Shown: positions 17,726 to 20,376 of the stretch, in pieces | Position numbering within the stretch: the stretch's first letter is position 1 | Layout: each line of letters starts with the position of its first letter | DNA from: Acidobacteriota bacterium | GTDB lineage: Bacteria; Acidobacteriota; Terriglobia; Terriglobales; Acidobacteriaceae | NCBI GenBank assembly: GCA_021792135.1 | Contig: JAJYVF010000024.1 | Span: forward strand, 1-64,000 | Length of the DNA stretch: 64,000 bases | Direction: 5' to 3' | Translations under genes and position numbers: made by a program | The notes under the pieces: model-generated | What the model was told of the DNA's origin: nothing | Seen by the model: the letters and a program-made list of their open reading frames with translations, nothing else | The model's database searches: none

Positions 17726-18148
17726 TCACTTGAGGGCCAGAAAGACCTTATGCGCGCCTTCAAGGTTCGCATCCTCGTGCCACGCCCGGCGTTCCCGCTT
17801 CGAGGCGGGAAGGTCCATGTTCATGGAAACGGAGGGGCACAGGATCTGGCTCAGAAAATATTCGTGGCCGTAGTAGTGGAAGACCAACCTGCCGGGGTCG
17901 GTCGAGTTGGCCTGCACAAACTCCGCCACCGATGGGGAGAGCACGCCGACCGGCAGATCGCGGTTGTGAATCTCGATGGCGCCGGACGAGACCGGCGTGA
18001 TCGTGTAGGTACCTGCGGGGAGAACCTTATTGCCCACCGTGAAATCGAATGGAACAGTCGCCTGGACTGCACGACCCTGAGCCACGGCACCGGCTGTTGT
18101 GAGGAGGCTGGCCAGGGCAAAAACGACGATTGAGGTGATGCCTTTCAT
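17726..18148 (-). CDS. Small secreted protein, sigma-54-driven, function unknown
   Basis: From the ATG at 18148 (GGGAGA site nine bases upstream) the product is 140 residues. A typical Sec signal peptide (KGITSIVVFALASLLTTAGAVAQ) precedes a beta-rich domain beginning VQATVPFDFTVGNKVLPAGTYTI. I associate this opening with a small-protein family common in acidobacterial genomes, but its function is not known to me. Two Cys are absent from the mature N-terminal half; the C-terminus is basic. The gene has its own -24/-12 promoter, a roughly 120-nt leader and a strong terminator, so it is a monocistronic regulon member divergent from a sigma-54 activator. Confidence 0.8.
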   Translation of the reverse strand: MKGITSIVVFALASLLTTAGAVAQGRAVQATVPFDFTVGNKVLPAGTYTITPVSSGAIEIHNRDLPVGVLSPSVAEFVQANSTDPGRLVFHYYGHEYFLSQILCPSVSMNMDLPASKRERRAWHEDANLEGAHKVFLALK

Positions 18149-18277
18149 GACGATATCTCCCTTCTCGAAGCGCCTTCTGAGCGCCTCTCCGGACTCCTCA
18201 CAGTGGAGCCCGAACTGAATTTTGTCTGGTGTTCGGAAGGCCCTTCCTTCCGGGCTTGGGGTAACGCCCGGGAATAT

Positions 18278-18294
18278 TGCAGTCTTCGTGCCAA
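18278..18294 (-). promoter_or_regulatory. Sigma-54 (RpoN) -24/-12 promoter
   Basis: On the minus strand TTGGCACGAAGACTGCAA occupies 18294 to 18277. GG (18292-18291) and GC (18280-18279) are separated by exactly ten bases, and TGGCACG-N4-CTGCA differs from the TGGCACG-N4-TTGCA consensus at one base. The start site would be near 18268, with the secreted protein ATG at 18148. Confidence 0.8.
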
Positions 18295-18383
18295 AGCTGC
18301 CGCTGCTGCCGCACAGCGCGCGTACTGATTGGTGCCCGTGTGTTTTCAATGCGATACGGATGGAGAGGTTGTGAGATCCCTGG

Positions 18384-18400
18384 GTTCCCTGGCCGGGAAC
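18384..18400. promoter_or_regulatory. Inverted repeat GTTCCC-N5-GGGAAC, candidate activator site
   Basis: Perfect 6-bp arms in the divergent region, about 92-108 bases upstream of the -24 element. GGTTCCC recurs at about 18444-18450 and 18479-18485, suggesting a repeated binding motif. Assignment to the adjacent activator is an inference. Confidence 0.4.
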
Positions 18401-18410
18401 TACCCCTCGC

Positions 18411-18428
18411 GGTATCCGATCGGATACC
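18411..18428. promoter_or_regulatory. Perfect 18-bp palindrome, candidate enhancer of the sigma-54 promoter
   Basis: GGTATCCGATCGGATACC is its own reverse complement and lies about 120 bases upstream of the -24 box, the normal place for an activator binding site of a sigma-54 promoter. Confidence 0.5.
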
Positions 18429-18473
18429 CTCCAGGAATCGGTTGGTTCCCAGCGATCTTCGCCCGCGTGATGG

Positions 18474-18503
18474 GTGACGGTTCCCGTACGGGTTCGCTAC
18501 ACT
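18474..18503 (+). promoter_or_regulatory. Sigma-70-type promoter of the FHA-sigma-54 activator gene
   Basis: GTGACG (18474-18479) and TACACT (18498-18503) are separated by 18 bases. The palindrome CCCGTACGGG (18483-18492) sits between them, where a bound protein would block polymerase, so autorepression is possible. AGGAG lies before the TTG start at 18523. Confidence 0.5.
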
Positions 18504-18522: not shown

Positions 18523-20376
18523 TTGAAACCGAGGCTCGCTGGAATCTCTGGTCCGCTGCGGGGCACCGTACGCGAACTGGGTAGTGAAGAACTGTCCATC
18601 GGTCGGCTGGAGGCGAACGGCCTTTGCCTGCCCGACCCCGCCGTTTCGCGGAAGCACTGTACGATTCAGCAGGTGGACGGACGCTTTGAACTGGCGGATC
18701 TCGACAGCCGGAACGGCACCTTTGTCAACGGGATCCCGGTTCGAAACAAGGTACTGGAGCACGGCGACACGATCCGCGTTGGCCACTGCGAGCTGGTTTT
18801 CCTTTTGGGCGAAGACGAAGGCGGGGAAAGCCTGAACCTGCGTCCGGTTGAGGAGCCGCCGGTCCTGGCAACCAGGACGATTCAGTTCGCTCAGCCGTCA
18901 TCCAGATTTCCCACGGCGGGAGTCGAAGTTGGGCGCATGGCGCGGGACCTGACGGCGCTGTTCCGGATCACGAATGTCATTAATTCCATACGCGACCTCG
19001 GGGCACTTCAGCGCGAACTTCTGCAGGTGATTTGTGAGGTCATCCCGGCGGAGCAAGGCGCGATCATCCTGCTCACCGATCCCAACAATGAGGCGGGCTC
19101 GGTTTGTAACTGGTGCCGAGAGGACGGGGACAAGCGGCCTCTCAGGGTCCATAGGGATCTGGTGCATCGGGCCCTGTGGGAACGCTCGGCGGTGTTCACG
19201 GACGTGGGCTGCGACGCGAAGGATCCCTGTAACGTGCTCTGCGTGCCCCTGATTGCCGCGGAGCGAACGCTGGGGGTCATCTACCTGACGGCCTCGCAAC
19301 CCGTTTCACCTTTCCTGGAAGACCATATCCACTTCCTGAGTTCCGTCTCGCGGATCGCCGCGGTCACCCTCGAGAACAGGCTCGCGCTCGATGCGCTGAG
19401 TTCGGAAAACGAGGCGCTGAAGGAACAAATCCATACCAGCAAAATGGTGGGGGAGAGCCGGCAAATCCGGCAGGTGGAGGAATTCGTCACCCGGGTGGCG
19501 CGGGGAGACACGACCGTCCTGATCCGCGGGGAGAGCGGCACCGGCAAGGAGCTCGTCGCCCGCGCGATCCATCATCACAGCCCGCGTTCGGGTCGGCCTT
19601 TCGTGGCCATCAACTGTGCGGCGATCCCGGAGGCTCTGCTGGAAAGCGAACTCTTCGGGCACGAAAAGGGTGCGTTCACCGGGGCTGTCGCAATGAAAAA
19701 GGGCAAGCTGGAAGCGGCCGAGAACGGGACTCTGTTCCTGGACGAGATTGGCGAACTTGCGCCGGGCCTGCAGGCGAAACTGCTGCGCGTGCTGCAGCAG
19801 AGGGAATTTGAGCGTCTCGGCGGAACACGGCCGATTGCTTTCACCGCCCGCGTCGTAGCCGCGACAAACAGGAACCTGGAGCAGGCCATCAAGTCCGGGG
19901 AATTTCGGCAGGATCTTTATTACCGGCTCAATGTTGTCTCGGTGACTGTGCCTCCGTTGCGCGAGCACCGCGACGACATTCCGCTGCTGGCCCTCTTCTT
20001 TGCGGCGAAATATGCGGAGAAGAGCAAACGTCCGTTCAAGGGCATCTCGCGCGAGGCGCGAACGCTGCTGATGCATTACAGCTGGCCTGGGAATGTGCGC
20101 GAACTGGAGAATGCCATCGAGCATGCCATCGTGCTGGGCCTGACGGAGGAGATTCTGCCCGAAGACCTCCCGACCGCCATCCTCGAGGAAGAGTCCGCCG
20201 GGCTGGAGGCGGCCCGGTACCATGCGGTGCTGAATAACACAAAGAAGGAGCTGATCCTGCGTGCGCTTCGGGAAGCCGATGGAAGTTATCCGGAGGCGGC
20301 GCGGCTGCTCGGGATCCATCCGAAGTATCTGCACCGGCTGGTGCGGACCTTGAACCTGAAATCAAAGATTCGTTAG
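18523..20376 (+). CDS. Sigma-54-dependent transcriptional activator, FHA-GAF-AAA+-Fis HTH
   Basis: The 617-residue protein begins with an FHA phosphothreonine-binding domain (GR at 27-28, SRKH at 42-45, N64 and N69). A GAF sensor domain follows (about 140-290), then an AAA+ domain with Walker A GESGTGKE (336-343), GAFTGA (383-388) and Walker B FLDEIG (405-410), and a C-terminal Fis-type helix-turn-helix (about 575-610). The GAFTGA loop means it can open RpoN polymerase. The FHA domain suggests input from a Ser/Thr kinase, but no kinase gene is adjacent. TTG start at 18523. A good -24/-12 promoter lies in the divergent region, the natural first target. Confidence 0.93.

Follow-up and report, generated by a model that had tools for sequence, protein, structure and literature searches.

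The region between two divergent genes of a probably acidobacterial genome very probably houses a self-contained local sigma-54 circuit, consisting of an activator, its putative enhancer and the promoter of a small-protein gene. The window, i.e. the whole 64-kb stretch of DNA that was analysed, is part of contig C31; the genome measures 5.1 Mb. It carries the activator gene on the plus strand (18523..20376; 617 aa from a TTG start at 18523) and the small-protein gene, the presumed output, on the minus strand (17726..18148; 140 aa), with the promoter and a palindrome in between. Comparison of related loci shows that promoter, putative enhancer, spacing and divergent arrangement recur, and that the putative enhancer covaries with the recognition helix of the activator. 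We infer activator binding, RpoN dependence, the signal, and both the secretion and the role of the small protein. In the circuit as proposed, the activator would be expressed from its own housekeeping-type promoter, and an oligomer of it would bind the palindrome at 18411-18428 via the C-terminal helix; the sensor part, GAF with FHA as a modulator in those activators that have it, would gate the activator, which, once gated, would contact sigma-54 RNA polymerase poised at 18278-18293, opening it by ATP hydrolysis. Promoter opening would lead to production of the small secreted protein.

The putative intergenic promoter and the palindrome

The site TGGCACGAAGACTGCA (18278-18293, minus strand; TGGCACG-AAGA-CTGCA) has one mismatch to the consensus TGGCACGN4TTGCW, and it combines the GG-N10-GC pattern of sigma-54 promoters with near-consensus flanks. 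The first-pass annotation had named it as the -24/-12 promoter of the small protein, and the claim holds up well: the spacing is exact, no other site in the window has as few as one mismatch to the consensus, an approximate matrix places it at the top of both strands of the window (17.6 of 20.1, runner-up 13.5), and it recurs in orthologous loci. Transcription from sigma-54 promoters starts some 12 nt downstream of the -12 GC, which predicts 18267..18268 (minus strand) as the start of the small-protein transcript.

On its own, the promoter sequence match is weak evidence. The window has 9 sites that deviate from the -24/-12 consensus at no more than two positions, against 12.1 expected by shuffling. 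Genome-wide, with one mismatch allowed, the consensus shows no enrichment over its reversed pattern (98 vs 119). The exact pattern TGGCACGN4YTGCW occurs four times in 5.1 Mb, the window's site included; the other three lie under stop-to-stop frames of 394-619 aa, and the window's site lies under one of 256 aa. Loose -24/-12 matches turn up just as often in shuffled sequence, and the argument is therefore built on comparison. The same frequency speaks for the alternative that the -24/-12-like and palindromic sequences stand here by chance, without function; this is extremely improbable, since the recurrence in the further loci described below far exceeds both shuffles and control windows.

The palindrome GGTATCCGATCGGATACC (18411-18428), placed 118 bp upstream of the -24 box, was confirmed as a perfect 18-bp palindrome and is the sole perfect palindrome longer than 14 bp within the 64 kb. 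It is read as the predicted enhancer (UAS) of the activator because it recurs at similar spacing and because the dyad covaries with the activator's helix; by sequence comparison, a dyad upstream of the promoter is conserved together with both activator and promoter. A possible degenerate second copy, about 22 bp from the first, lies at 18435..18449 and keeps the GGTTCC half, a weak resemblance seen by eye; a second copy 19-22 bp from the first was likewise seen by eye in several relatives.

Two further elements proposed in the first-pass annotation did not survive comparison. The GTTCCC-N5-GGGAAC repeat is present at 18384-18400, yet the window holds 23 repeats of the same geometry and 11/11 close relatives lack it, and we rejected it as a regulatory site. 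Autoregulation of the activator through CCCGTACGGG, a palindrome between putative sigma-70 boxes, was dropped as well, the palindrome being found by eye in none of the 11 close relatives; the -10-like TACACT of the activator's own promoter (18498..18503, plus strand) is present, by eye, in 9/11 of them.

Recurrence in related loci and helix-to-dyad matching

The discovery loci were drawn from 100 family genomes, each of which matches the activator somewhere at E<=1e-60. Thirty loci and seven more made 37; L040, with 66 nt of upstream sequence, and L042, which is no orthologue, were dropped, leaving 35. Upstream of the activators stands a 14-bp dyad, followed by a GG-N10-GC site directed at the divergent gene. 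With loci of unrecognised helix counted as Tyr class, here as in the dyad and promoter counts of the further and the outside-family sets, a dyad of the class corresponding to the helix (at least 9 of 10 letters) was found in 31/35 loci against 0.6 expected by mononucleotide shuffling. T-GG-N10-GC-W lies 115-160 bp beyond the dyad in 31/35 loci (offsets 118-157; L020, L037, L041 and L086 have no promoter in this range), as compared with 0/35 on the other strand and 0/35 in each of three other windows on the same strand.

The further set came from 398 family genomes, which gave 78 new places; 64 were taken and 14 left, some of them at contig ends, and 62 proved usable once L193, whose frame is broken, and L230, with 2 nt of upstream sequence, were removed. 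The dyad models were settled before this set, the helix and dyad classes having first been seen in the discovery set. The helix-predicted dyad is present in 47/62 further loci against 0.66 expected by shuffling; these loci belong to the same family, many to one genus (g7), and include the near-identical pairs L174/L175 and L178/L181, so that they are not independent. No helix-class dyad of 8 letters was found in six Tyr loci (L172, L174, L175, L187, L189 and L192) and one Ser locus (L217); L187, L189 and L192 retain a near-consensus -24/-12 site. GG-N10-GC stands at +115 to +160 in 46/54 loci tested, a range that was set after the further loci were visible and approximates the discovery offsets of 118-157; the controls gave 2/54 on the other strand and 2/54, 1/54 and 0/53 in other same-strand windows. 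Six of the eight misses (L171, L176, L191, L201, L213 and L220) have GG-N10-GC just beyond the range or differ in the last base alone.

A phylum-wide draw outside the family yielded 35 places, of which 34 were taken and one, with an internal stop, was left out. Here the dyad is present in 18/34 loci (0.52 expected) and the promoter in 9/25 tested (other strand 0/25; two other windows 1/25 each), which suggests that the wiring extends beyond the family and is looser there. Of the first-pass description of the locus, the divergent arrangement, the promoter, the dyad and the spacing are borne out by recurrence in related genomes.

Across all 131 loci, perfect dyads were defined as TANCN-N4-NGNTA, with bases 3 and 5 free. 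Activators with a Tyr helix (YLHR) are accompanied by 56 TATCC, 3 TATCT and 1 TATCG dyads; those with a Ser helix (SLLR) by 7, all TAACC; those with a His helix (HLFR, HLHR) by 5, all TAACA; and those with an Asn helix (NLHR), a class noticed only in the last, outside-family set, by 3 TATCA and 1 TATCC. Base 3 of the dyad thus tracks the helix in 76/76 perfect dyads, being T for the Tyr and Asn helices and A for the Ser and His helices. A perfect dyad is missing in 61/131 loci: 45/99 with YLHR, 4/11 with SLLR, 4/8 with HLFR, 3/7 with NLHR and 0/1 with HLHR, and four rarer helix types have one in none of their 5 loci. The helix classes are clustered among related genomes and further helix residues vary as well; we infer that a single helix residue may be the cause of the dyad class.

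The covariation of base 3 with the recognition helix points strongly to the adjacent activator as the protein that would bind the dyad. Lying between both genes, the dyad could instead serve as operator for some other regulator, such as one repressing the activator gene, with a different activator driving the sigma-54 promoter, and the genome does hold 15 PF00158 matches, 10 of them strong. We consider this quite unlikely, because base 3 of the dyad tracks the helix of the activator next door without exception among the perfect dyads, and because GG-N10-GC stands at a similar distance from it on one strand only. The adjoining activator is consequently retained as the predicted regulator of the small protein, as first annotated, on the strength of the covariation and of the recurrence in further loci.

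The activator, its sensors and its reach

Profile searches divide the activator into FHA (residues 25-87), GAF (157-285), Sigma54_activat (308-474) and HTH_8 (575-605) domains, i.e. an FHA-GAF-AAA+ protein with a sigma-54 interaction region and a Fis-type HTH (PF00158 5e-72; PF00498, FHA, 2.5e-20; PF02954 1.4e-5, over the cut-off). Its sequence contains the GAFTGA motif, as expected of sigma-54 enhancer-binding proteins, and the N-terminal FHA domain places it with the FHA-type members of that group; the recognition helix reads PKYLHRL. It falls below the cut-offs of the curated NifA (TIGR01817; 399.8 vs 528.85 bits) and NorR (NF003451; 352.6 vs 476 bits) families. On the contigs of named genomes, 72 loci match the activator, nearly all of them over the AAA+ domain only or over AAA+ plus part of GAF, and the best named-genome match is to an Acidobacteriaceae MAG (42%). 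Within the genus, the activator is found at E<=1e-130 in only 2/12 sampled genomes.

The first-pass annotation had proposed that a phosphothreonine signal from a Ser/Thr kinase enters through the FHA domain. In favour of this, FHA is intact by profile and the genome has six Pkinase matches over the cut-off, none of them on the window's contig; an obligatory role is weakened by the close orthologues L017 and L018, which lack FHA and retain GAF (63% and 56% identity). Because these two still have a dyad, a GG-N10-GC site and, next to the activator, a secreted protein of the window protein's family, FHA is dispensable for the wiring of the circuit. Kinase-to-secretion signalling via FHA is possible in the window locus, and would not be what holds the circuit together; judged from sequence, GAF is the more constant sensor among the loci looked at.

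The circuit looks private to the window's gene pair because a search of the 5.1-Mb genome finds the dyad core in perfect form at the window locus alone. The self-containment claimed at the outset is upheld by this uniqueness, together with a single copy of rpoN. Alternatively, the activator could govern a wider regulon, with the neighbouring promoter as one target among several: activators can bind degenerate sites, and when one mismatch is allowed the dyad core occurs at 10 places as compared with 2 for the reversed-pattern control. The nine sites with one mismatch are all covered by stop-to-stop frames (234-923 aa), a weak argument for the short frames given that the window's own intergenic site lies under one of 256 aa. 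Only one of the nine, within an 874-aa frame, has GG-N10-GC at a distance of 100-175 bp. With these points against it, we regard the wider regulon as unlikely and keep to a single local target.

The general type, a local enhancer-dependent sigma-54 circuit, is already known, and the present example is unusually well supported by comparison. Myxococcus xanthus reportedly has FHA-domain enhancer-binding proteins (Jelsbak 2005), which resemble the window activator in carrying FHA on a sigma-54 activator; the window activator has in addition a GAF domain between FHA and AAA+, a helix-matched local enhancer and a small divergent output, the myxococcal proteins having been compared by FHA alone. NorR sits divergently beside its target promoter, and NifA and NorR (GAF-AAA+-HTH) share with the window activator a GAF sensor and a local sigma-54 target; unlike them, the window activator scores below the curated cut-offs and has an added FHA. 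In circuits of the CbrB-CrcZ type a sigma-54 activator drives a small RNA, as may be the case in sister loci with a structured RNA, whereas the window has a protein gene in that position. A literature search of titles, abstract beginnings and passages returned no description of this circuit. Two parts look new: the enhancer classes matched to the helix, and the swapping of outputs, one of which is an RNA absent from Rfam.

We lean slightly towards a broader interpretation, in which the phylum's FHA/GAF activators, that of the window included, would be portable one-target cassettes with a near one-residue helix-enhancer code (Tyr TATCC, Ser TAACC, His TAACA, Asn TATCA) and swapped outputs (small secreted proteins, short peptides, structured RNA). 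Many sigma-54 activators have no known targets; here a predicted target, an enhancer and a helix-to-DNA rule come together in many natural variants, which make the specificity of this activator class directly testable. Matched activator-enhancer classes could supply orthogonal parts for synthetic switches, and the locus opens a way to study a so far unnamed family of secreted proteins as well as the structured RNA.

The predicted small secreted protein and its counterparts in sister loci

The 140-aa protein belongs to a VPFDF...LPAGTY family, and its signal-peptide-like start, recognised by eye, suggests that it is secreted. Pfam and NCBIfam contain no family that matches it at E<=1. The AlphaFold model is beta-rich (pLDDT 78.6); a fold search of the PDB returned no match at E<=0.001, and the best Z from VIA-align was 2.1; by these searches the predicted fold would count as neither new nor known. 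Most probably the product is a beta protein of the envelope or periplasm. Three tandem paralogues lie elsewhere in the genome (G000:C64:84954-86292); a candidate enhancer and promoter ahead of them were rejected, the 660 bp upstream holding one poor GG-N10-GC and one 8/10 dyad in the wrong order. Under a strict pattern, a VPF-type secreted protein stands divergent to the activator in 24/100 loci, and a FEWRxLLGPTH protein is the neighbour in 4/100.

In many sister loci a structured RNA takes the place of the small protein, being found by pattern in 10/37 discovery loci and 25/63 further loci. It consists of a hairpin with a G-rich loop, a terminator-like hairpin with a C-rich loop and a U-run, and lies shortly past the GG-N10-GC site (e.g. 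L022:3637-3752, L083:1659-1774 and L211:2213-2328). Among 26 sequences, both partners have changed in 12 of the 29 proposed pairs, and the terminator stem accounts for 11 of these 12; the predicted inner hairpin and a proposed loop-loop pairing show hardly any variation. In a search of 17 loci against Rfam only two tRNAs exceed the gathering score, and the L022 stretch carrying the RNA has no match up to E 1. A model of the RNA matches 20/100 family genomes, some of which supplied sequences for building it. As an element of the window the RNA was rejected (best E 1.4), and the window's own genome has none.

Nine RNA places lie away from the known loci. At L244 and L246 the RNA is preceded by both a dyad and a promoter; at L245 a promoter-like site precedes it, with an FHA-type signature about 1.6 kb off; the other six are without this arrangement. 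At L247, L249, L250, L251 and L252 no sigma-54 site stands immediately upstream of the RNA, and in at least four of these five the RNA follows, by eye, the apparent end of an M23-type peptidase gene.

Short peptides were observed at loci with a His helix. A search that covered these loci found, in 6/8 (L084, L195, L198, L208, L212 and L229), peptides of roughly 55-65 aa that look secreted and share an ADGGPxxLCPP-like core. In the other two, L029 and L033, tandem 16-residue peptides M(K/T)(I/V)KTNTKAGSAVWGG lie divergent to the activator and resemble peptide precursors.

The 5' leader of the window's secreted-protein gene (18149-18268, minus strand) has a hairpin, GGGCUCC-ACUGUGA-GGAGUCC (18190..18212, minus strand), with weak covariation, 1/7 pairs being changed on both sides among 8 sequences. 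By eye, the leader's hairpin and start are common to close relatives.
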